Positions 4,040 through 27,520 of a DNA stretch of 47,947 bases are shown piece by piece (position 1 is the first letter of the stretch; every line of letters starts with the position of its first letter). The stretch is from a virus, in the IMG/VR virus record IMGVR_UViG_3300049478_000019, positions 1 to 47,947 of that record. One strand, written 5' to 3'. Made by a program: the position numbers and the translations under genes. The notes under the pieces are model-generated. The model searched no databases, was not told the DNA's origin, and worked only from the letters and a program-made list of their open reading frames with translations.

Positions 4040-4237
4040 ATGTCCGAAATCAAAGAATTTCAGGCGCAAGTGAAGGAAATTAAAAGCAAGGCACTCGTTA
4101 GTTTGGATAAATCCGCGAGAATCATCCTGGAAACGGAAGACCTGGAAACATTGGATATCGGCAAATGGCCAGCGGATGAGAATGTCCGAGTGACGATTGA
4201 GCGGATTCCGAAGGTGGATATTGGGTTGAAAGAATGA
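4040..4237 (+). CDS. Small hypothetical protein
   Basis: This 65-residue protein is preceded by a strong AAAAAGGAGG and ends in a four-base ATGA overlap with the methyltransferase gene. It is acidic and predicted helix plus strand, with repeated LETEDLETLD. No family is recognised; tight coupling suggests co-expression with the methyltransferase. Confidence 0.65.
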   Translation: MSEIKEFQAQVKEIKSKALVSLDKSARIILETEDLETLDIGKWPADENVRVTIERIPKVDIGLKE

Positions 4238-5415
4238 ATGACCTTCAGATAAAATATGTCCCTGTCGGGTCCCTCAAGGAATTCCCGATGAATCCGCGCA
4301 AGAATGACGAGGCGGCGGAACAGTTGGCAAGGTTGATGGGGGAATACGGATTCGTCATTCCGATAATTGCCACGCCAGATGGGACAATTCGGGCTGGGCA
4401 CACTAGGATAAAAGCTGCCAGAAAACAGGGAATGAAAGAAGTGCCCGTGATCTTTGTCGATTTTGGGGACGAGAAGAAGGCCGTCGCCTTTTCTTTGGCT
4501 GATAACAAAAGCCATGAATGGAGTGAGTGGGATTTCCCGAAACTCAAAGATATTATGGTTGAAATTGATGATGGATCGTTCGATATGGCATTGACGGGAT
4601 TCAAGGAAGATGAACTCAAGGAGATATTTGGCCATAACGGTGATCCTCCCGCCGATGCCGAACCCCAGGTTGACCGAGCCGAGGAGACGAATAAGAGATG
4701 GCAGGTCAAGACTGGCGATTTGTGGCAGATCGGGGAGCATCGGCTGCTCTGCGGGGATTGCACGAAGCGCGAGGATGCTCAGCGCGTAATGGGAGGCAAG
4801 AAGGCGCAGCTTTGCTTCACTGACCCGCCTTATGGCGCAGACATTCAGTATGCCACCCACAACGACACGCAAGACGCGCTTGAGGGGCTGATTGCTGGCT
4901 TCTTTCCGATTGCGCGTGATATGTGCGATGTGGTTGCGCTCACGCCTGGAATCAACAATGTGTTTCTATATCCCAAGCCGTCCTGGTTGCTCTGTTGGTT
5001 CTATGCGGCCGGCACAGGTCGCTCGCCTTGGGGTTTTACAGCTTGGCAGCCCGTGGCCGTTTGGGGGTCTGACCCTAAACTCGCGGCTGGCGAGGGTTGT
5101 CACCCTGATGGTTTCCAGTGGATGATGGACAAACAAGACGCTGAGATAAACCAGAACACCGGCCATGCGTGCCCGAAGCCGACAAGTGTTTGGACTCGAT
5201 TTCTCGAACGCCTGACAAACAAAAAGAGCGTGAATATTTACGACCCATTCCTTGGCTCCGGCACCACTATGGTCGCCTGCGAGAATTTAAAACGCAAATG
5301 CCGAGCGATAGAAATTTCTCCGGCCTATTGTGCCGTTAGTCTTCAGCGCATGGCCGATGCCTTTCCGGGAATTAAAATTAAAAGATTGGGAAATGGCACA
5401 GAACCTAACAATTAA
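4234..5415 (+). CDS. ParB-domain DNA methyltransferase fusion
   Basis: Residues 1-130 form a ParB/sulfiredoxin-like domain (GHTR at 55-58). Residues 160-385 form a SAM-dependent DNA methyltransferase with catalytic DPPY at 197-200, before the SAM-binding DPFLGSGTT at 337-345; this order is that of the beta class (N6-adenine or N4-cytosine). Such ParB-methyltransferase fusions are common in phages next to terminase genes and probably protect phage DNA from restriction. The target sequence cannot be predicted. It overlaps the small terminase start by 23 bases. Confidence 0.9.
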   Translation: MNDLQIKYVPVGSLKEFPMNPRKNDEAAEQLARLMGEYGFVIPIIATPDGTIRAGHTRIKAARKQGMKEVPVIFVDFGDEKKAVAFSLADNKSHEWSEWDFPKLKDIMVEIDDGSFDMALTGFKEDELKEIFGHNGDPPADAEPQVDRAEETNKRWQVKTGDLWQIGEHRLLCGDCTKREDAQRVMGGKKAQLCFTDPPYGADIQYATHNDTQDALEGLIAGFFPIARDMCDVVALTPGINNVFLYPKPSWLLCWFYAAGTGRSPWGFTAWQPVAVWGSDPKLAAGEGCHPDGFQWMMDKQDAEINQNTGHACPKPTSVWTRFLERLTNKKSVNIYDPFLGSGTTMVACENLKRKCRAIEISPAYCAVSLQRMADAFPGIKIKRLGNGTEPNN

Positions 5416-13905: not shown

Positions 13906-13974
13906 ATGGGGTGTGGTGGGGATGACTCATTACACCCCAATAATTTGAGTAAATATTTTCCCGCGTGGTTTTAG
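13906..13974 (+). CDS. Possible 22-residue peptide
   Basis: ATG 13906 is preceded by AAGGAG at 13894-13899 and the frame stops at TAG 13972-13974, inside the first hairpin loop of the structured element. The peptide contains MGCGGDD and ends in aromatic residues. It could be a leader peptide whose translation affects the hairpin, or chance. Confidence 0.25.
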   Translation: MGCGGDDSLHPNNLSKYFPAWF

Positions 13975-14033
13975 CTCCTTTCTCCCACGCGGCCTCCGGG
14001 CGAGGCGGGCTACCTCCTCGGCGCGTCTCGCCC
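13961..14033 (+). promoter_or_regulatory. Two-hairpin RNA element, copy A
   Basis: CCGCGTGG (13961-13968) pairs with CCACGCGG (13985-13992) around a pyrimidine-rich loop. After the spacer CCTCC, GGGCGAG (13998-14004) pairs with CTCGCCC (14027-14033), with an inner GCG/CGC stem, a 3'-side bulge and a loop containing CTACCTCCTCG. No T tract follows. The same layout with different sequence recurs at 17407-17482. Confidence 0.6.
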
Positions 14034-14059
14034 ACCTTTAGGAAAGGCAGGTGATATAG

Positions 14060-14221
14060 ATGTGCAAATGTGCTTGTGGTTTTGAGGGGACTGAATCGCA
14101 AGTTTTTGCTCATGTTTATTATTCTTATAATCCAGGACAACATTTTTCGGTTAAAGAATATAAGTGTATCTGTACCACAATTAAAAACAAGGATTGTTTA
14201 ATTCACGCGGACAGTCCATAG
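14060..14221 (+). CDS. Small Cys-rich protein
   Basis: ATG 14060 follows GGCAGGTGAT and the frame runs to TAG 14219-14221, giving 53 residues. It begins M-C-K-C-A-C and has a second C-x-C plus a further Cys in the C-terminal half, which suggests a small zinc-binding fold. No family is recognised. It begins soon after the two-hairpin element. Confidence 0.5.
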   Translation: MCKCACGFEGTESQVFAHVYYSYNPGQHFSVKEYKCICTTIKNKDCLIHADSP

Positions 14222-14235
14222 GGGAGGTGATGTGG

Positions 14236-14385
14236 ATGCAAAGCCCTGAATCTCCAAAGTTTGGTGAAGCTGGGTATGTTAGTCAATTAGACTCCGGGGG
14301 GTGCGTGTCGGAGTGGGAAGAAAAACAAGCACGTGCGGTTCTTTCGGAAAAAGTTTTGGCGAGAGACTGGGATCAGCAGAATTGA
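14236..14385 (+). CDS. Small hypothetical protein
   Basis: GGGGAGGTG at 14221-14229 places the likely start at ATG 14236 (or ATG 14230), giving about 49 residues. The protein is polar and contains QSPESPKFGEAG and ARAVLSEKV. The underlying DNA includes an inverted repeat (ACTCCG/CGGAGT). No family is recognised. Confidence 0.4.
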   Translation: MQSPESPKFGEAGYVSQLDSGGCVSEWEEKQARAVLSEKVLARDWDQQN

Positions 14386-14402
14386 TCATCCTTAAAGTTG
14401 AC

Positions 14403-14480
14403 ATGCCGAGAAAACAACAACTAATTATTAATGCCGGAAATTGGGTATTAACTATTAAAAAATGTAAGGAAAATAAATAA
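14403..14480 (+). CDS. Possible 25-residue basic peptide
   Basis: ATG 14403 opens a short frame ending in TAA that overlaps the next ATG (TAATG). A TTGACA sequence covers 14398-14403, but no good -10 box follows. The peptide is basic (MPRKQQL, TIKKCKENK). The overlap supports translation; length argues against. Confidence 0.3.
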   Translation: MPRKQQLIINAGNWVLTIKKCKENK

Positions 14481-14671
14481 TGCCTGTTCATAAAGGGGGC
14501 AAGGGTGGAACCAAGAAATATGGGCGCAATAAGATAAAGTGTGCCCGATACCGTGCAGAGGGGAAAAAAGAAAAAAACAAAAAGAGAAGAATCTTGACCC
14601 AAAAAAGAAAAGAACAAAAGAAGCACTTGAAATTAGAAAGAAAAAAATTATTTGAACATTCAATCAGATAG
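14480..14671 (+). CDS. Small highly basic Lys/Arg-rich protein
   Basis: This 63-residue protein is more than one third Lys or Arg (KKEKNKKRRIL, KRKEQKKHLKLERKK) and begins MPVHKGGKGGTKKYG. It overlaps the methyltransferase start by 20 bases. Such basic proteins may bind nucleic acid, for example packaged DNA. No family is recognised. Confidence 0.5.
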   Translation: MPVHKGGKGGTKKYGRNKIKCARYRAEGKKEKNKKRRILTQKRKEQKKHLKLERKKLFEHSIR

Positions 14672-15272
14672 ATGGACTGGAAAATTCGGGGATGATTATG
14701 TTAGAAGATCACTGTTATCTCCTGATATCATCGCAAAAAGATCCGCAACGTTCCGATCCATCTTTTGGTCTTTCGCGCAGGAACCTACATCCATTTTGGA
14801 GGTTGGCTGTAATATCGGTTGCAATCTATTAGCTTTTAGGCCGCATGTAGTTCCGCCAAATTTACTTATCGGGGTAGAGCCGAATGAAACAGCCCGCCGA
14901 ATTGCTCTCATGTGGGGACTGGCGGTTTATCCGGATTTCGGACACGACCTAAAATTTCTTGACACATTTTTTGATGTAGTCTTTACTTGTGGAGTTCTAA
15001 TGCATTGCGATATTGAGATGGCGGAAAAGATCGCTGATGAAATGAACAGGGTCTCAAAAAGGTGTCTGATGTTTATGGAATATTTTGGGAACGAGGACAA
15101 AGAAATTCCCTATCGAGAAGAAAAAGAATATCTCTGGGAAAGGCCATGGCCAAATTATTTCAAAAAGTGGGGATTCGGCGAGCCAGCAGTATACGGCTTT
15201 CTGGAACCGGATCAAGGATTTGATTCGATCAATTATTGGATTTATCCGAAACGGCCCGAAAGGATTCTATGA
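14652..15272 (+). CDS. Pseudaminic-acid-associated methyltransferase, copy 1
   Basis: This 206-residue SAM-dependent methyltransferase has the motif ILEVGCNIGCNL (SAM-binding loop), GVEPNE (acidic end of strand 2) and VFTCGVLMHC. The N-terminal W-x-G-K-F-G-D-D-Y and the C-terminal EYF...IPYREE...LWERPW are hallmarks of the family named pseudaminic acid biosynthesis-associated methylase. The substrate is presumably a nonulosonic acid or its precursor. It is followed by a paralogue in an ATGA overlap and then by a Maf-like gene, so the three form one unit. Confidence 0.8.
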   Translation: MNIQSDRWTGKFGDDYVRRSLLSPDIIAKRSATFRSIFWSFAQEPTSILEVGCNIGCNLLAFRPHVVPPNLLIGVEPNETARRIALMWGLAVYPDFGHDLKFLDTFFDVVFTCGVLMHCDIEMAEKIADEMNRVSKRCLMFMEYFGNEDKEIPYREEKEYLWERPWPNYFKKWGFGEPAVYGFLEPDQGFDSINYWIYPKRPERIL

Positions 15273-15868
15273 CGGACCTGCAGCTTGAAAGATGGATGGG
15301 GAAATTCGGAGATGATTACACCAAGCGAAACCCTCTTTCGGAAGCGTTGATCAAAAAGCGGGCGGAAGTTCTAAGACAGATAATCGAACCATTAAGACCG
15401 GTGGGCATCATAGAGATCGGATGCAATATGGGCATCAATCTGGGTGCACTATTGACCTTCCTCCCATTCCCGAATTTTGTCTGTGGGGTCGAGCCCAATG
15501 AAGTGGCCAGGAGGGTGGCCGAGGTAAGTAACTTGAAGGTATTTCCCGATTGCGGGCAGAATCTAAAATTTCCTGACGAATTCGCCGATATGGTTTTTAC
15601 TTCTGGGGTCCTTATCCATTGCGCATTGGGAGAAGCGGAAAAAATCGTTAGAGAGATGCGCAGGGTTTCTAAGAAATACCTTCTATTCTTGGAATATTTT
15701 AACAAAACCGATGAGGAGATCGAGTACCGGGGCGAAACGCGATTACTTTGGAAACGGAACTGGCCCGATCATTTTAAGGCATGGGGTTTGGGGAAGCAGA
15801 TATCATGCGGATTCGCCGGGAAGGACCAGGGATTTGATGATGTCCATTGGTGGGTCTACAAAAAATGA
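15269..15868 (+). CDS. Pseudaminic-acid-associated methyltransferase, copy 2
   Basis: ATG 15269 overlaps the stop of copy 1 (ATGA) and is preferred over in-frame ATG 15236, giving 199 residues. It shares the whole architecture with copy 1: W-M-G-K-F-G-D-D-Y, IIEIGCNMGINL, GVEPNE, VFTSGVLIHC and IEYRGETRLLWKRNW. The copies are diverged, so they may methylate different positions. It runs into the Maf-like gene with another ATGA overlap. Confidence 0.82.
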   Translation: MTDLQLERWMGKFGDDYTKRNPLSEALIKKRAEVLRQIIEPLRPVGIIEIGCNMGINLGALLTFLPFPNFVCGVEPNEVARRVAEVSNLKVFPDCGQNLKFPDEFADMVFTSGVLIHCALGEAEKIVREMRRVSKKYLLFLEYFNKTDEEIEYRGETRLLWKRNWPDHFKAWGLGKQISCGFAGKDQGFDDVHWWVYKK

Positions 15869-17121
15869 ATTATAAATATCGGGATAAAGATGAATGGAAA
15901 ATGTCAGCTTGGCCCTGGACAACCGTGGATTCCATGAACCAAGGGATCGCATCCGGCCAATTCAGCCCCGACAAGAAAGTCATGACCTGGGAAGAGATTT
16001 TAATGCTGCGCGCTCGCATCGCCAGTCTGGTTACGGGAGTTGCTATCGGCAGGAGGTCAAAATATAATATCCGGGCCTCTGAAGCGGCGCTGAATAACGG
16101 AGCCATGGGAATAAAAGATTTATTCACGTCGAAATGCCCGACTTGCGGATCCAGGGGCGAAAAAATCCCACGCGAGATGCCAGAATACAAGAATGCCCTT
16201 CCGGGGTTGCTTTGTCCCCAATGCAAAAAGACCTTTCTCTCAAAATCTATTTATGGCAACAAACCCGTTTTCGCAGTGGCGGCTGGTCCGTCACTGAAAA
16301 ATAACGGGCATGAATTGAAAAGGATCGAGGGGAAATATCCAATATTTGCCGTTGATACTGCGTTGCCAACCCTTAAGATGATCGGCATTAAGCCGGATTA
16401 CATGATGACGGTGGAAGTGGATCCCCTTATCAATGAGATGAAAGTTGACAGTGAGGGGATAACGATGATTGCAACCATGACCGTTGACCCGGAATTCAGA
16501 AGATCCTGGAAAGGGCCGGTATATTTCTTGGATACGCCAACGGCGAATAAGAGGGAACAGAAAAAACGAAGCAAGATAAGATCCGATATCGGATGGGCTT
16601 CACCCGGGGGAAATATATCTTCAATCATGTATAGCATGCTTTATGGCACATATCCAAGCAAGATTATCATGGTTGGACATGATTTTTCTTATGACCATAT
16701 CATGAATTATTTCGCCGAAGGTGGCCCCATGTCCATGATTCCAGGCAAGATGATATTTACCACCCATAATATATACGGCAAAAGGGTCTTAACGGACTCC
16801 AGTCTTTTCGGATACAAGGAATGGACTCAAGCGGCAATCAAGAGTCTATCCATAAATTCTTGGGCGACGACGGTCAATGCCACTGAGGGCGGGATATTGG
16901 GGACCACTTATTATGATCCCCAAAAGTTCATAAGGGTAAGGAGATATTTAAAGGAATTATCGTATAGATTTAATGTTCTGATAAACCAGCGGAAATGGGT
17001 CAATCGGGAAGAGGCCCAAGAGAACGGCTTTAAGGGGCCGAATTTAGATTGCATTGAATATCTGACATTGAAAGAGGCCATTGACAAATACTGCCCCGAT
17101 GCCTCTAAAGGAGAAAGGTAA
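15865..17121 (+). CDS. Maf-like glycosyltransferase (DUF115/MptE-like), copy 1
   Basis: ATG 15865 in an ATGA overlap gives 418 residues. A zinc-ribbon insertion (CPTCG ... CPQC) precedes the core, which has VFAVAAGPSL, IFAVDTALPTL, GIKPDYMMTVEVDP and IIMVGHDFSYD, the pattern of Maf/DUF115 proteins that transfer pseudaminic or legionaminic acid to flagellin. It follows two nonulosonate-type methyltransferases and precedes a small virion protein and the major capsid gene. Function as a virion glycosyltransferase is inferred. An alternative in this superfamily is the pterin pyrophosphokinase MptE. Confidence 0.75.
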   Translation: MNYKYRDKDEWKMSAWPWTTVDSMNQGIASGQFSPDKKVMTWEEILMLRARIASLVTGVAIGRRSKYNIRASEAALNNGAMGIKDLFTSKCPTCGSRGEKIPREMPEYKNALPGLLCPQCKKTFLSKSIYGNKPVFAVAAGPSLKNNGHELKRIEGKYPIFAVDTALPTLKMIGIKPDYMMTVEVDPLINEMKVDSEGITMIATMTVDPEFRRSWKGPVYFLDTPTANKREQKKRSKIRSDIGWASPGGNISSIMYSMLYGTYPSKIIMVGHDFSYDHIMNYFAEGGPMSMIPGKMIFTTHNIYGKRVLTDSSLFGYKEWTQAAIKSLSINSWATTVNATEGGILGTTYYDPQKFIRVRRYLKELSYRFNVLINQRKWVNREEAQENGFKGPNLDCIEYLTLKEAIDKYCPDASKGER

Positions 17122-17387
17122 TGTCATTAATTCCACAAATAGTCAGTTCATCTACGGCAGTGGGTACTAATTCTGGATATCTTTTGAAGGGCATTGAGGT
17201 CACGCCCGACGGCGGATCGCTTGAAGTTAGAATTTTGCAGGGGACCGATAGCACGGGTAGCGAGAAAATGCGTATTCGCGCCATGGAAAAGAGCGAATAT
17301 AGATATTATCCGGAAGGGATCCAATTAAACGGTCCTCTCTATATCTACTTTTATGCCGGATCTGGAGCAGTTACCGTTTTTCTATGA
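17121..17387 (+). CDS. Small beta-rich virion/decoration-like protein
   Basis: The 88-residue product begins in an overlap with the Maf stop and has alternating hydrophobic strands (GYLLKGIEV, SLEVRILQGT, PLYIYFYAG, AVTVFL). The pattern matches small beta-sandwich phage proteins often found near capsid genes and resembles the protein at 19284. A decoration role is likely but not shown. Confidence 0.5.
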   Translation: MSLIPQIVSSSTAVGTNSGYLLKGIEVTPDGGSLEVRILQGTDSTGSEKMRIRAMEKSEYRYYPEGIQLNGPLYIYFYAGSGAVTVFL

Positions 17388-17406
17388 TGCGAAGAATCGG
17401 AATAGC

Positions 17407-17482
17407 CCACGGGGTTTTTATACCCTCCTTTTTCCCCGTGGCAGCGCCGGGAGGCTGGTCACTTCCTGCCAGCACTCCCGGC
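17407..17482 (+). promoter_or_regulatory. Two-hairpin RNA element, copy B (capsid leader)
   Basis: CCACGGGG (17407-17414) pairs with CCCCGTGG (17434-17441) around a pyrimidine-rich loop containing CCCTCC. After a four-base spacer, GCCGGGAG plus GCTGG (17446-17458) pairs with CCAGC plus CTCCCGGC (17469-17482) with one bulged A. It lies 88 bases before the major capsid gene and shares its layout with the element at 13961-14033. Confidence 0.65.
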
Positions 17483-17531
17483 CATTTAGAGGGTTTAAAT
17501 TGAGCATATCACAAGCCAGCATGGCAATAGG

Positions 17532-17554
17532 GGCCGCTTTCGGGCGGCCTTTTT
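17532..17554 (+). terminator. Terminator abutting major capsid ribosome site
   Basis: GGCCGC (17532-17537) pairs with GCGGCC (17544-17549), followed by five T. The capsid gene's TTGGAGG begins three bases after the T tract. The hairpin may set the 5' end of a capsid transcript or limit read-through. Confidence 0.75.
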
Positions 17555-17569
17555 ATTTGGAGGATACAA

Positions 17570-18544
17570 ATGAAAATTAGTGAAGTCTACAGAGCATACA
17601 GAGAGGGGCGAGAGGGGCTGCCCATTTCGGAAGTGGCTAGGGCAACCGAGTTCGCTTCCTTCCTGGCAAGGGGTCTCAGGACGGACTTGATGACCCAATA
17701 TACTAACTGGCTGGCCCCCGTCAATTCGATGTTTGATACCAAGCCAAGCGACGGCGCCTTTGAGACATATCCGAAACTGTCTGCGATTGACGGCATGGGC
17801 GAGCGGTTGGCCGGAGGAGAATTCCCCCGCATGGCCTTCAATTCGGAAGACGTGCGGCTGGTCAACAAGGAATATGGCGGGATCTGCGAGATCGACCAGT
17901 TCCTAATTGATACCGACCAGACCAACAAACTCAGGGGATTGGCCGGGACCGCCGGGGATATCGCCGGAAGAGCCAAGGGCGATGCGGCATCAACTTATTA
18001 CTTGGCGATGTCGGCGGCAACCAACTACGATGCCGTCTTTATCACGGCATTAACGGGCGCGGCTCATCCATACGTCACTGGCGGGGCGGCAGTAGCCACT
18101 CAATTCAACATGGCTGCGGCCGGGGCCTTGACGGAAGCGACCTGGGAAGCCACGCTTGTAATTATCCAGGCATGGCGCGGGATATTCGGCGAGCGGATCA
18201 ATGTGAATCCCAAAACAATAATTGTCGGGACAACCGATCAATTCAGCGCGGCCCGGTTATTCAAGGACCCGATTCGTCCCCCGACTGTGGCAACGACTTT
18301 CGGTCACGAGAAAAATATCCATTTCGGCGAAGTGGATGTGGTCTTCGACAAGACTTTCGGCGCGCATTGGTTCGTGAAAACGGATGTGACGGGATTGATC
18401 CATCAGCAATTGACGCCCCTTGAGGTGGCCCAGGAACCCAATAACACCGGTCTGTCATTCGATACCCGGATTTGGAGATTCCGGCTTTATGAAGCCTATG
18501 TCCTCGGGTGCGTTGACTGGCGGTCCATTCACCAAGGAAACTGA
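17570..18544 (+). CDS. Major capsid protein
   Basis: This 324-residue protein has the features of a Mu gpT/HK97-fold capsid subunit: an N-terminal helix, the segment GICEIDQFLIDTD, and a C-terminal strand region ending in RFRLYEAYVLGCVDW. It forms the icosahedral shell. The gene follows two RNA hairpins and a terminator and has a strong TTGGAGG site, consistent with high expression. It lies between protease/decoration genes and the connector genes. A Maf-like gene one gene upstream makes this a candidate glycosylation acceptor. Confidence 0.8.
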   Translation: MKISEVYRAYREGREGLPISEVARATEFASFLARGLRTDLMTQYTNWLAPVNSMFDTKPSDGAFETYPKLSAIDGMGERLAGGEFPRMAFNSEDVRLVNKEYGGICEIDQFLIDTDQTNKLRGLAGTAGDIAGRAKGDAASTYYLAMSAATNYDAVFITALTGAAHPYVTGGAAVATQFNMAAAGALTEATWEATLVIIQAWRGIFGERINVNPKTIIVGTTDQFSAARLFKDPIRPPTVATTFGHEKNIHFGEVDVVFDKTFGAHWFVKTDVTGLIHQQLTPLEVAQEPNNTGLSFDTRIWRFRLYEAYVLGCVDWRSIHQGN

Positions 18545-22222: not shown

Positions 22223-22636
22223 ATGAAGAAATGGTTTATTATCGCCGCAATTATCGCTATTCCCGTGATCGTCTGGGCGCAGAGTTGGTTCCCAGCGAAT
22301 CAAAAGACCATGCAGTGGGATGCCGTGACGACCCTGGAAGGCGGGGCGCCATTGCCTAGCGGATCCACGGTCAAATATGTTTGTTACACGAAGACGCCCA
22401 CCGTTCCTACCCCGGTCCAAGTTGGAGTAAGTGATATTCCCCAGTTTACTTTTACCTTTACGGTTGAGGGAAAATATTATTTGGGGGTTAGGAGTCAACG
22501 GATAGAGGCTGGAGCGGTAATCTCAGAAAGTGCTATATCCTGGTCGAATGACCCCTTGTTTGCCCAGGCGGGAAACACATTCGGAATAGTTTTCTATTAC
22601 AATCCGGCGGCCCCAGGTGGATTGCGAGCGGAATAA
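22223..22636 (+). CDS. Exported beta-sandwich-like protein
   Basis: This 137-residue protein begins with a signal peptide (MKKWFIIAAIIAIPVIVWA). The rest has strands resembling a fibronectin type III/Ig fold (PLPSGSTVKYVCYTK, YYLGVRSQRI, SESAISWSNDP). It is expected in the periplasm or outside the cell. It directly precedes the nonulosonate cassette with a one-base overlap. A role in host surface change or exclusion is speculative. Confidence 0.55.
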   Translation: MKKWFIIAAIIAIPVIVWAQSWFPANQKTMQWDAVTTLEGGAPLPSGSTVKYVCYTKTPTVPTPVQVGVSDIPQFTFTFTVEGKYYLGVRSQRIEAGAVISESAISWSNDPLFAQAGNTFGIVFYYNPAAPGGLRAE

Positions 22637-23136
22637 TGATTCGTCTCCGGGCATTAGAACGGGAAGATTTGAAACAACTCCGGGATTGGCGAAATGATCC
22701 AGAGATTTTCACCCGTGTGCGCGAGTATCGATATCTCAACATGGAGAATCAGGAGGCATGGTTCAATTCTCTGAAGGATGATCGTCAGACGATAATGTTT
22801 GGGGTTGAGTATTTAAATAGAGGTTGGAATCTGATTGGCGTTTGTGGTCTGACTAATATTGATTGGGTTGGAAGAAAGGCGGAAGTTTCAATCTATATCG
22901 GCAATAAAGAGTTTCGGAGGAAGGGTCTCGGTAGGGAAATCCTTGACCTCTTGGCAAAATATGCCTTTGAGGAATGCAATCTAAATCGGTTGTGGGCGGA
23001 AGTGTTCTTTGAAAATTTACCCGGTAGAAAATTATTTGATAAGGCGGGATACAAAAAAGAGGGGATTTTAGTTTCTCATGCCTACAAAAATGGTGTATTC
23101 ACGGATTCTCACATTTACGGATTGGTTAGGAAATGA
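22636..23136 (+). CDS. pseH: PseH-like GNAT N-acetyltransferase
   Basis: This 166-residue GNAT protein has an N-terminal RLRALEREDLKQLRDWRND, the acetyl-CoA loop RRKGLGREIL, and FDKAGYKKEGIL near the C-terminus. The length and pattern match PseH, which acetylates the 4-amino group of the UDP-altrosamine precursor of pseudaminic acid. It overlaps the PseB-like gene by four bases. The GNAT family is clear; PseH specificity rests on the neighbours. Confidence 0.8.
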   Translation: MIRLRALEREDLKQLRDWRNDPEIFTRVREYRYLNMENQEAWFNSLKDDRQTIMFGVEYLNRGWNLIGVCGLTNIDWVGRKAEVSIYIGNKEFRRKGLGREILDLLAKYAFEECNLNRLWAEVFFENLPGRKLFDKAGYKKEGILVSHAYKNGVFTDSHIYGLVRK

Positions 23137-24113
23137 ATTATCTGATAACCGGCGGCACAGGTAGCTTCGGTCAGGCGATGGCGGCAAGACTTCTGGCTAA
23201 TCCCAATACCGAGAGTGTCAGGATATTCAGCCGAGGCGAATTGCGCCAAGCGCAGATGAAGGAGAAATTCGCCAGGGACTGGGAGCGAATCAGGTTTTTC
23301 ATCGGCGATGTGCGAGATAAGGAGCGTCTGTTAAGGGCGATGCGCGGAGTTGACGTGGTTTTCCATGCGGCCGCCCTGAAGCGCATCGAGGTCGCGGAAT
23401 ACAATCCCTACGAGGCCATCAAAACCAATGTTGCCGGAAGTCATAACGTGGTTGACTGTGCAGTTGAGGCCCAGGTCAGGAAATGCGTTCTGATTTCCTC
23501 CGACAAGGCAGTAGATCCGGCAAATACTTATGGGGCAAGTAAGATGCTGGCCGAAAGGATTTTCTCGCAGGCCCCCTATTTTTTCGGCGATCCTCAGACG
23601 GATTTCTTAATTGTGCGATATGGGAACGTAGCCGGGTCTAATGGGTCGGTCATTCCGCTGTTTAAGGTGAAGGCTGCCAATGGAGAGCCATTACCCATCA
23701 CTCACAATGACATGACGCGATTTATCATCAAAATGGATGAGGCTCTTGACTTAGTTGAGCAGATTCTAAATGAGGGTGAGAGCGGGGAGATTTTTATTAA
23801 GAAACTTCCAGCCCTTTCTGTTCTTGATCTGGCCAACACAATAAATTTCATATTCCGCAATAAGGCGGGATTAAGATTGGATGGCATAGGACCCGGAGAG
23901 AAAGTTCACGAATGCCTGGTTTCTCTTAATGAACTAAATAGGACCTTTGACTATGAGGATCATTTCATAATCGTGCCCCTAATGAGCAATAAGGAAAGAC
24001 GGGAATCCCATGAGGTCAAAGAGCCATTCAGTAGCGACAAGGCCAGAAGGATGACAAAAGAAGAAATTATGAAACTGATAGGGGGGAATAATGAATATTC
24101 AGGAGTTGCATGA
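23133..24113 (+). CDS. pseB: PseB-like UDP-GlcNAc 4,6-dehydratase
   Basis: This 326-residue short-chain dehydrogenase/reductase has the NAD(P)-binding TGGTGSFG (6-13), the FFIGDVRD segment, FHAAALKRIEVAEYNP, and the catalytic SSDKAVDP-YGASK with D124, K125, Y133 and K137. The Tyr at 133 fits PseB, which inverts C5 to give a 4-keto-L-altro sugar, better than FnlA/CapD types with Met at this place. The C-terminal GPGEKVHECLVS is also typical. It overlaps the upstream acetyltransferase and the downstream protease. Confidence 0.88.
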   Translation: MNYLITGGTGSFGQAMAARLLANPNTESVRIFSRGELRQAQMKEKFARDWERIRFFIGDVRDKERLLRAMRGVDVVFHAAALKRIEVAEYNPYEAIKTNVAGSHNVVDCAVEAQVRKCVLISSDKAVDPANTYGASKMLAERIFSQAPYFFGDPQTDFLIVRYGNVAGSNGSVIPLFKVKAANGEPLPITHNDMTRFIIKMDEALDLVEQILNEGESGEIFIKKLPALSVLDLANTINFIFRNKAGLRLDGIGPGEKVHECLVSLNELNRTFDYEDHFIIVPLMSNKERRESHEVKEPFSSDKARRMTKEEIMKLIGGNNEYSGVA

Positions 24114-24915
24114 TCGCTGCATCTATCCGGCTGTAAGGGTTCGCACAGAAAAAGCTGGGGGATCCGGGACGATAATTTATTCTAAGGAAGGAAAGGATGG
24201 TTTTGATACTTTCATCCTCACCAATCATCATGTCATTGAATCTTGCATTGGAATCAAGGACGACTGGGATTCCCTATTGAAAAAGAATATTAAAAAGGAA
24301 TTCCTTTCCGAGATGGTTGTAGAGGTCTTTGATTATGTAGAATGTTCAAAAGTCAACAGCGCCAATGCTCTCAAGGGACAGATTATTGCCTATGATAAGT
24401 ATCATGATCTCGCCATTCTAAAACTTATTTCTCCCAAAAGGGCGGATTTCGTCGCCCAGCTCATGCCCAAAGATAAAATTAGGGAAAATATTTATATCGG
24501 TATTGATGTGTTGGCAGTCGGATGCAGTTTGCTACATGACCCGGTGATAAGCTACGGAAAGATCACTGCCATGAGAGAGATAATTGATGATCGGGCCTAC
24601 CTGATGACCTCATGCCACATAATCTTCGGCAATTCGGGGGGAGCATTGTTCTTGGAAAGAACGGGTGAACTCTTAGGGGTTCCGTCTAGGGTGACAGTTA
24701 TCCCGATAGGATTCGGTGCCGACATTCTCACATGGATGAGTTTCCCGTCCCATCCATTGAGATTATATGAATTTTTTGAAGAACAGCAACTCCAGTTCCT
24801 TTATGACCCGAATGAGACATTTGACGGATGTTGCAAGCGGAGAGAGAGGAAGAAGAAAGCCGCAATGGCGGAAATGCTGAGGGTGGCTAGGGAAGAGGCG
24901 GAGGAAGAAGATTGA
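24091..24915 (+). CDS. Trypsin-like serine protease
   Basis: This 274-residue protein shows the chymotrypsin-type triad: TNHHV (His47), YHDLAIL (Asp106) and GNSGG (Ser182). A charged C-terminal tail rich in Glu and Lys (about residues 245-274) follows the protease domain. No signal peptide is seen, so it acts in the cytoplasm or in the virion. It is wedged between the PseB- and PseC-like genes with overlaps on both sides (23 and 4 bases). A GGGGG ribosome site lies before its ATG. Trypsin-like proteases in this setting are unusual. Confidence 0.8.
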   Translation: MNIQELHDRCIYPAVRVRTEKAGGSGTIIYSKEGKDGFDTFILTNHHVIESCIGIKDDWDSLLKKNIKKEFLSEMVVEVFDYVECSKVNSANALKGQIIAYDKYHDLAILKLISPKRADFVAQLMPKDKIRENIYIGIDVLAVGCSLLHDPVISYGKITAMREIIDDRAYLMTSCHIIFGNSGGALFLERTGELLGVPSRVTVIPIGFGADILTWMSFPSHPLRLYEFFEEQQLQFLYDPNETFDGCCKRRERKKKAAMAEMLRVAREEAEEED

Positions 24916-26000
24916 TCCCCTATTCCCTTCACTCCATCGGCGAAGAGGAAATTCAAGCCGTAAGTGAAGTAATGCGCTCCGGATATCTCACTGGAGGCCC
25001 CAAGCTTGCCGAGTTTGAGGCCAAATTCGCCGAATATGTGGGGGCAAGCCATGCCATAGCGGTAAATTCGGGCGCTGCGGCCCTCTATATGGCCATTAAA
25101 GCCATCTTTCCAGGTAGGGGGGCCATCATAGCCCTACCCGCTCTTACTTATGTAGCCACAGCCAATGCTGTGGTGTTAGCGGGCCATATTCCCAGGTTTG
25201 TGGACATTGATCCCGATACTTTTTGTATTGATCCATATAAAATCGGCCATCAAAACCCGGATGCCGTAATTTCCGTTCACTATGCTGGCCACCCATGCGA
25301 TTTGGATGCTATTTATGAGGAAAATTGGCACATTCCGATTATCGAAGATGCCGCCCATGCTTGCGGCGCAGAATACAAGAGTAAAAAGATCGGTTCAATC
25401 AACATAGCCTGCTTCTCCTTCCATCCCTCCAAGAACATGACTACGGGGGAGGGGGGGATGATTACTACTAATTCCAATGCCATGGCGGAAATCCTAAAGA
25501 GGATGCGCCTTAATGGAATTCGGAAAATCGGGATCTACCAAGATATGGTTGACTGGGGATTCAAATTCAACATGAATGAGATCCAGGCGGCGATTGGGAT
25601 TGAACAGTTAAAGAAAATTAATCAGATGAATAGCAGAAGAAGACTTATTGCAATCCGATATGAAATGGCTTTTGAAAATTGTCCGGGGATTAAGATGCAG
25701 AAGTTTTTCCCCTTAAATATTGTTCATTCCCGCCATCTTTTCTCCATTCTATTGCAAGAAAGGGACAAGGTTGCGGAATATCTGCAATCCCAAGAAATCT
25801 CTTGCGCCATCCATTATAAACCCGTGCATCTGATGTCCTGGTATCGAAAAATGTTTCATTACGAAGAAGGCGATTTCCCCGTTGCCGAGGAAGTGGCGAA
25901 ACATATTTTGAGCATTCCGATATATCCCGATATGACCGATGAACAGGTTGAATATGTGATTGAGAAGACAAAGGAGGCGGTTTGGGCGTCTACATCATAG
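24912..26000 (+). CDS. pseC: PseC-like sugar aminotransferase (DegT/DnrJ/EryC1)
   Basis: This 362-residue PLP enzyme has VNSGAAALYMAI, EDAAHA (145-150) and the PLP-lysine segment FHPSKNMTTGEGG (K174). It would transaminate the 4-keto sugar made by the PseB-like enzyme. The start is TTG 24912, overlapping the protease stop (TTGA); homologues start at I-P-Y-S, which supports it. It is followed by the synthase gene in a 19-base overlap. Family secure; substrate from context. Confidence 0.88.
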   Translation: MIPYSLHSIGEEEIQAVSEVMRSGYLTGGPKLAEFEAKFAEYVGASHAIAVNSGAAALYMAIKAIFPGRGAIIALPALTYVATANAVVLAGHIPRFVDIDPDTFCIDPYKIGHQNPDAVISVHYAGHPCDLDAIYEENWHIPIIEDAAHACGAEYKSKKIGSINIACFSFHPSKNMTTGEGGMITTNSNAMAEILKRMRLNGIRKIGIYQDMVDWGFKFNMNEIQAAIGIEQLKKINQMNSRRRLIAIRYEMAFENCPGIKMQKFFPLNIVHSRHLFSILLQERDKVAEYLQSQEISCAIHYKPVHLMSWYRKMFHYEEGDFPVAEEVAKHILSIPIYPDMTDEQVEYVIEKTKEAVWASTS

Positions 26001-26773
26001 CCGAGGCCGGGGCCAGCCATAAGGGAAATGTCAAGACGGCCCGCGAGTTGATTCTTGCGGCCAAGATAGCTGGGGCTGATTGTGTTAAATTTCAGGCATG
26101 GAATACGGAAAAGTTCGTGGCCAAGACGAGTCCTTTTTACGAGTCGTTCAAGAACAACGAATTCCAAAGTCTGGATTGGGTTTATCTCAAATACCAGTGC
26201 GACCAGATGGGGATTGATTTCCTGGCCTCTGCCTTCAATGTAGAAATGATTGACTTCCTGGATGAGATAGGAATGAAGGCTTTCAAGGTTGCGTCTGGGG
26301 ATCTCACCTATGAGCCATTGCTTCGGCATATCGGATCGAAAGGGAAACCGATTTACCTTTCAACGGGAATGGGGACAATCGAGGAAATAAGCAACGCCAT
26401 AAATTGGCTCGGAAGAATTCGTTTGACGCTTTTGAAATGCACGGTTGATTATCCGGCTGATGAGGAGAATGTGAATCTTGCCGGGATAAGAACTTTGGGA
26501 AGTTACTTCCCAGGGCACAGGATTGGCCTATCCGATCACACTAAGGGCCACCTTGCGGCTTGCATGGCGGTTGCCATGGGGGCGGGCGTGATTGAAAAGC
26601 ATTTTGCTTTAGAGGAAACCGGGGAGGCAATTGGTTCCGCAGATTTTAACGAATTTGTTAAGAAAGTGAGAACTGCGGAAAGTATCATGGGCAGCGAAAT
26701 ATTGGGGACCTTTGATTGCGAAGAGAAATGGAAGTTGGGCGCCCGAAGGGGAAAGAGTGGTTTAAGGGAATGA
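25982..26773 (+). CDS. pseI: PseI/NeuB-like nonulosonic acid synthase, catalytic domain only
   Basis: This protein condenses a hexosamine with phosphoenolpyruvate to a nine-carbon acid. It has EAGASHKGN (8-16), VKFQAW, LSTGMGT, GLSDHTKG and VIEKHFAL typical of NeuB barrels. The start is TTG 25982, supported by AAAGGAGG at 25970-25977. At 263 residues it stops at RRGKS, where NeuB/PseI proteins normally continue into a SAF/antifreeze-like C-terminal domain, which is missing. No remnant of it is seen downstream in any frame. It may be a natural short form or a truncation. Confidence 0.85.
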   Translation: MGVYIIAEAGASHKGNVKTARELILAAKIAGADCVKFQAWNTEKFVAKTSPFYESFKNNEFQSLDWVYLKYQCDQMGIDFLASAFNVEMIDFLDEIGMKAFKVASGDLTYEPLLRHIGSKGKPIYLSTGMGTIEEISNAINWLGRIRLTLLKCTVDYPADEENVNLAGIRTLGSYFPGHRIGLSDHTKGHLAACMAVAMGAGVIEKHFALEETGEAIGSADFNEFVKKVRTAESIMGSEILGTFDCEEKWKLGARRGKSGLRE

Positions 26774-26946
26774 CCCCTTATTGGTCGAATAATTCATCTC
26801 CCAAGGATAGAACATGGGATTGGATAATCTTGGCCGCCATCATAGCGGGATGTTTATTCATAGGAAAATGTCTAAATGGTAGGAATCATAATACAAGCAA
26901 GATTAGGATCGACACGGCTTCCTCGAAAAGTGCTGTTGCCTATTGA
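26770..26946 (+). CDS. Small single-pass membrane protein
   Basis: ATG 26770 overlaps the synthase stop (ATGA), giving 58 residues with one hydrophobic segment (WDWIILAAIIAGCLFIGKCL). The 3' part overlaps the cytidylyltransferase by 71 bases. The overlap and short length make it uncertain, but the start is coupled as elsewhere in the cassette. Its function is unknown. Confidence 0.45.
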   Translation: MTPYWSNNSSPKDRTWDWIILAAIIAGCLFIGKCLNGRNHNTSKIRIDTASSKSAVAY

Positions 26947-27520
26947 TGGCAAACCGATAATCGCGCACGTTTTTGAGAGATGCCTTCAAACGGGATTCCC
27001 AGTTGTGGTCGCCGTGCCCGAGGGAGAGGGGCAGGAATTCAAAGACGTCCTTCCAAATGCCCATGTTTTTGAGGGCCACCCGACCGATGTTTTGGACCGT
27101 TATTATGAGGTCGCCAAGGCATTCAAATTCGATCCCATTATCAGGATTACCGGGGATTGCCCATTGATAGATATAAACATTATGGGGCAAATGGTCACTC
27201 AATTTAAACTTGATGGCAATGATGGATATTTATCGAATTGTCATCCTATTAGAACAGTACCCCTCGGATTAGATATTGAAATATTTAGTTTTCGCCTTCT
27301 TGAGAAAATTCATTGCTTTGTCCATACTTCCCCTCTCAAGAATGCAGAAGAATATAAAGAGCATGTCACAATGGGCATGTATGATTATTTCGGTGACGAA
27401 AAAATAAGGACTTACTCTCCCCCTTGGAGTATTGATTGGAAAATGTCGGTTGATACCCAAGAAGATTATGAACGGGTCAAGGCAATGATCGAAGAAGGAA
27501 AATTCCCATGGCGGAACTAA
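26876..27520 (+). CDS. pseF: SpsF/PseF-like CMP-sugar cytidylyltransferase
   Basis: This 214-residue nucleotidyltransferase starts with GIIIQARLGSTRLPRKVL, the nucleotide-binding motif of the SpsF branch of the CMP-acylneuraminate synthetase family, followed by RITGDCPLID. It would activate the nonulosonic acid as a CMP sugar for transfer. The gene ends in a 13-base overlap with a connector-region gene, so the cassette is fused into the virion operon. PseF proper and SpsF-type enzymes differ in N-terminal motif; SpsF type is the better description. Confidence 0.82.
   Translation: MVGIIIQARLGSTRLPRKVLLPIDGKPIIAHVFERCLQTGFPVVVAVPEGEGQEFKDVLPNAHVFEGHPTDVLDRYYEVAKAFKFDPIIRITGDCPLIDINIMGQMVTQFKLDGNDGYLSNCHPIRTVPLGLDIEIFSFRLLEKIHCFVHTSPLKNAEEYKEHVTMGMYDYFGDEKIRTYSPPWSIDWKMSVDTQEDYERVKAMIEEGKFPWRN

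Follow-up and report, generated by a model that had tools for sequence, protein, structure and literature searches.

The window, by which we mean the whole 47,947-base stretch of virus record IMGVR_UViG_3300049478_000019, carries two short elements, each consisting of two adjacent hairpins, hereafter P1 and P2. Both had been claimed in an earlier note, at 13961-14033 (copy 1) and 17407-17482 (copy 2), and both were confirmed; the elements and the features flanking them are all on the + strand. In copy 1, P1 (13961..13992) has an 8-bp stem, 13961-13968/13985-13992 (CCGCGTGG/CCACGCGG), closing a 16-nt loop, UUUUAGCUCCUUUCUC (TTTTAGCTCCTTTCTC). P2 follows at 13998-14011/14020-14033, with 10 bp (one of them G.U), a 1x1 mismatch and 3 bp, and its loop is ACCUCCUC (ACCTCCTC). 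In copy 2, P1 (17407..17441) again has an 8-bp stem, 17407-17414/17434-17441 (CCACGGGG/CCCCGTGG), with a 19-nt loop, TTTTTATACCCTCCTTTTT (UUUUUAUACCCUCCUUUUU), and P2 (17446..17482) pairs 17446-17459 with 17468-17482 over 14 bp, as 8 bp, a bulged A on the 3' side and 6 bp, with the loop CACUUCCU (CACTTCCT). In both copies the 5' arm of P2 measures 14 nt, and a U.G pair closes its 8-nt loop. A 3'-side bulge had been attributed to P2 in general; it holds for copy 2, whereas in copy 1 the bases taken for a "GT bulge" are more plausibly a G.U pair.

Copy 2 begins 20 nt past the stop codon of the preceding gene and is spanned entirely by a 39-codon open reading frame (17384-17503). The next gene, at 17570..18544, encodes the major capsid protein (PHROG 371, E 1.4e-9; Pfam Phage_capsid_4, E 1.8e-9). 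Copy 2 had been placed in the leader of this gene, and it does lie upstream of it, but it is not simply leader: an intrinsic-terminator-like hairpin with a T-run (17529..17558; hairpin 17529-17552, then TTATTT) separates it from the capsid Shine-Dalgarno site, a GGAGG directly 3' of that hairpin, and from the ATG at 17570. At copy 1, a small open reading frame (13906..13974) preceded by the Shine-Dalgarno sequence AAGGAG has its TAG stop inside the P1 loop, and possibly encodes a leader peptide; the P1 loop is also able to pair with AAGGAGTTA of this small reading frame. No T-run directly follows P1 or P2 of either copy, so none of the four hairpins qualifies as an intrinsic terminator.

Two methyltransferase genes (14652-15868) and an adjoining gene for an MptE-like protein (15847-17121), which weakly matches the flagellin modification protein PseD, are located between the two copies. 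Further rightward, a run of pseudaminic or nonulosonic acid genes occupies 22636-27520, all its matches being below the curated cut-offs: PseH-like (22636-23136), PseB-like (23133-24113), PseC-like (24912-26000), NeuB/PseI-like (25982-26773) and a KdsB/PseF-like cytidylyltransferase (26876-27520). An HtrA/DegP-like serine protease gene (24091-24915) is inserted between the PseB-like and PseC-like genes. The MptE-like protein and the methyltransferases could be users of the nonulosonic acid made by this gene run. Elsewhere in the window, at 4234-5415, one protein combines a ParB N-terminal domain with a DNA methylase domain.

The two elements are more stable than their shuffled counterparts, with folding z-scores of -2.2 and -4.4. 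The P1 loop pattern GGTTTT-N0-9-CTCCTTTYTCCC has two matches in the window, both within the elements, and zero in shuffled sequences. The layout by itself is not rare, as a loose two-hairpin scan returned three places in the window versus one per shuffled sequence; this descriptor was too permissive and was dropped as a search tool. In both copies the P1 loop can also pair with a strand located just after P2, at nearly equal offsets (+8 in copy 1, +7 in copy 2) and with different sequences: in copy 1, GGAAAGG (14041..14047) with CCTTTCT (13977-13983), and in copy 2, GAGGGT (17489..17494) with ACCCTC (17422-17427). As each pairing taken singly is matched by about one in five random stretches, the case in the window for a pseudoknot between the P1 loop and the strand after P2 is no more than suggestive.

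IMG/VR was then scanned with the P1 loop pattern, in which only the innermost stem pairs were fixed and the rest of the stem was left free. This pattern matched 36 distinct places in viral contigs. In 12 of them the loop was closed by an uninterrupted stem of 9 bp or more, counting G-U pairs, the stems being unrelated in sequence, and several further places had interrupted stems. No stem of this length was found with a loop of matched composition but permuted order (0 of 16 distinct places), with a mirrored loop (0 of 7), or, using a slightly stricter pattern, across 257 Gb of genomes from bacteria and archaea (0 of 17 places). Because the control loops and the bacterial and archaeal genomes gave none, we conclude that loop and hairpin go together, and that the pair is seen in viral contigs only. 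Two extra scans, each with one side of the loop freed, added about a dozen hairpins (among them L184, L185, L186, L189, L192, L222, L233, L234, L249 and L258), and showed that the 5' U-run is variable, as is the 3' side of the CUCC and pyrimidines. As the scan patterns partly imposed the loop sequence, its conservation was correspondingly under-tested. The earlier note took a lack of further copies as grounds for giving up the idea; for P1, such copies were found in many unrelated viruses, most records having one copy and the window two.

The two-hairpin unit as a whole fared differently: its recurrence outside the window is not supported, because in other viruses P1 mostly occurs by itself or is accompanied by a different second hairpin or a terminator. 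No P2 with an anti-Shine-Dalgarno-like loop turned up outside the window, and the collections searched contain no close relative of this phage. Its capsid protein has no relatives in the viral contigs and only two, distant ones (24-26% identity) in phage records; terminase relatives (at most 42% identity over long matches) do not share the elements. Weak R1 scores on the other strand of terminase relatives L006-L008 looked unrelated on reading, and a hairpin pair of similar layout in L009 looks like an ordinary terminator. Five loop variants searched in phage records had no matches. One Grimontviridae phage, OQ829281, scored 30.8 bits with a 6-bp stem, a single match which may be due to chance.

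A covariance model was built from three members and used to align 26 copies. With this model, P1 scored 31.0 bits in copy 1 and a weak 21.3 bits in copy 2; L175 and L197 were scored as well. Among the 26 aligned copies, pairing was kept in 93.8% of the stem cells, and 9 of the 10 stem pairs showed double compensatory changes. The covariation score was 0.876, versus 0.191 for shuffled and at most 0.18 for slid controls, and 89 cells were doubly changed, versus 30 after shuffling; the alignment was fitted to the structure, which favours the covariation score, and the stems were found without the model too. Stem pairs departing from Watson-Crick were G-U 13 times and A-C never. It is therefore the sense-strand RNA that is the selected form, and explanations at the DNA level were rejected. 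The covariation that had been claimed from the two copies of the window is thus borne out for P1 across many unrelated viruses, and argues strongly for P1 being a real RNA motif.

The hairpins are located in intercistronic RNA. A stop codon was present at most 60 nt upstream of 7 of the 12 strong hairpins, compared to 3 of the 49 matches without a hairpin (p = 1.7e-4). Neighbouring genes include those for capsid proteins (L063, L072, L107 and copy 2), portal and head-tail adaptor proteins (L088), an internal virion protein (L079), terminase (L075, L096), a primase-helicase (L076) and a replication initiation protein (L081). On one viral-classed contig, an alphaproteobacterial-type tmRNA gene (L104:800-1175) is followed by the hairpin motif and then by a terminator.

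The P1 loop starts with a U-rich stretch, followed by the core CUCCUUUYU. This core matches, over 9 nt, the 3' tail of 16S rRNA, which is reported as CCUCCUUUCU in B. subtilis (PMC5732282). In the window, CUCC or UUCC is present in all four loops, P1 and P2 of both copies, which supports their description as anti-Shine-Dalgarno-like; some loops lack the full CCUCC core, because the base preceding CUCC is not fixed to C. In some viruses the loop pairs strongly with the Shine-Dalgarno site of the next gene, as in L185 (GACUCCUUU with GAAGGAGUC) and L104 (UCCUUUCU with AGAAAGGA), and good pairing was also seen in L087, L189 and L192. Over 28 copies, however, the loop paired no better with its own tail than with swapped tails (p = 0.19), so that masking in cis is unsupported as a general mechanism. 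Sites complementary to the loop were not enriched in the window either (11 found versus 11.2 expected). The contig of L072, one of the best hairpins, has weak Shine-Dalgarno use.

The reading we favour, with a probability of roughly 40%, is that both elements represent a virus-associated anti-Shine-Dalgarno riboregulator hairpin. A freely changing GC-rich stem, placed in intercistronic RNA directly past a stop codon, would present a pyrimidine loop copying the 3' tail of 16S rRNA. The loop would most likely base-pair with purine-rich Shine-Dalgarno sequences of mRNAs, either that of the next gene on its own transcript or those of other mRNAs in trans, the trans form being possibly a processed 3'-UTR small RNA. 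Such pairing would lower, or time, translation initiation, and the window phage would have two such loops per copy, P1 and P2. The bolder proposal, that many unrelated phages convergently keep between late operons a hairpin copying the 16S tail to compete with ribosomes, as a previously undescribed virus-wide regulator, is doubtful at present. If the favoured reading is right, a portable phage RNA part would set the translation timing of late genes such as capsid genes.

Several of these observations could be accounted for otherwise. It could be that the loop is the binding site of a conserved host protein (S1, Hfq, a cold-shock protein or an RNase) which acts on phage mRNA between operons by stabilising, processing or terminating it, the likeness of the loop to 16S rRNA being incidental. 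A pyrimidine-rich loop with a U-tract, diverse viral contexts, tolerance to change in the 5' part of the loop and the lack of significant pairing in cis would all suit a bound protein. The 9-nt match of the core to the 16S tail would not, nor would the failure of pyrimidine loops of equal composition, permuted or mirrored, to form hairpins, although a sequence-specific protein would explain the latter too. We hold this explanation to be rather unlikely. The chance formation of the hairpins is highly improbable: the layout taken alone is not rare, but the shared loop pattern was never found in shuffled sequences, and the covariation across viruses already contradicts chance for P1.

Two other explanations assign a function to the elements as part of their own transcript. 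They could be intrinsic terminators or attenuators at operon ends that happen to have an unusual loop, as copies lie at the ends of transcription units, the stems of L063, L096, L107, L184 and L222 lead straight into a T-run, and a classical terminator-like hairpin stands 3' of the motif, ahead of the next Shine-Dalgarno site or close to it, in copy 2, L087, L104 and L197. However, by eye only some 6 of the 26 copies have such a T-run, 13-22 nt is long for the loop of a terminator, and termination leaves the conserved loop sequence unexplained, which makes this reading improbable. In the window, the elements could also gate the next gene in cis, either as pseudoknots of the P1 loop with the strand after P2 or as leader-peptide attenuators. 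The 6-7 bp pairing of the P1 loop at a near-equal offset in two copies of different sequence, and the small open reading frames that end in or cross the elements, point in this direction. Yet the frequency of such pairings in random stretches speaks against it, and the other viruses, as a set, have no similar downstream strand; we regard it as quite improbable.

The anti-Shine-Dalgarno riboregulator we propose can be compared with several known RNAs. Rfam gave no match above the gathering threshold in the window, and only tmRNA and tRNA in 14 related loci, which is consistent with the RNA being undescribed, as had been suggested. The put antitermination RNA of phage HK022 is also made of two adjacent hairpins, with two copies per genome and covarying stems, as in the window; put acts on RNA polymerase in early leaders.

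Another phage system has an RNA structure between genes which is able to cover a ribosome-binding site (PMC3014915). In that case initiation is inhibited by the stem-loop region as such, whereas the viral hairpin has a separate stem and loop, the loop being shared between viruses, and its pairing with its own site is not significant. The CcsR1-4 sRNAs of Rhodobacter sphaeroides, which are stress-induced according to the title of a reference cited in the source, lie 3' of a small protein gene, end with a Rho-independent terminator and are processed from a precursor by RNase E (PMC10253847). Copy 2 shares with them the order of gene, hairpins and terminator; theirs is a bacterial locus, in four copies.

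The closest likeness in loop and stem is to the alpha-r14 or "cuckoo" sRNAs of Rhizobiales, such as NfeR1, which consist of consecutive hairpins with highly different stems, each leaving an anti-Shine-Dalgarno motif unpaired (PMC10746234). Both window copies likewise have several hairpins with anti-Shine-Dalgarno loops on unrelated stems. The bacterial sRNAs, however, carry an ultraconserved CCUCCUCCC on three hairpins and reside in bacterial genomes, whereas the viral motif is CUCCUUUYU after a U-rich stretch, mostly on one hairpin. Because CCUCCUCCC is absent from the window loops UUUUAGCUCCUUUCUC, ACCUCCUC, UUUUUAUACCCUCCUUUUU and CACUUCCU, and because no family of the alpha-r14/cuckoo type matched in Rfam up to E = 10, we do not file the viral hairpin as a member. 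By analogy it may nevertheless work like these sRNAs, and if the reading proposed here is right, phages would have in it an equivalent of the bacterial anti-Shine-Dalgarno sRNAs, one that is absent from RNA databases.
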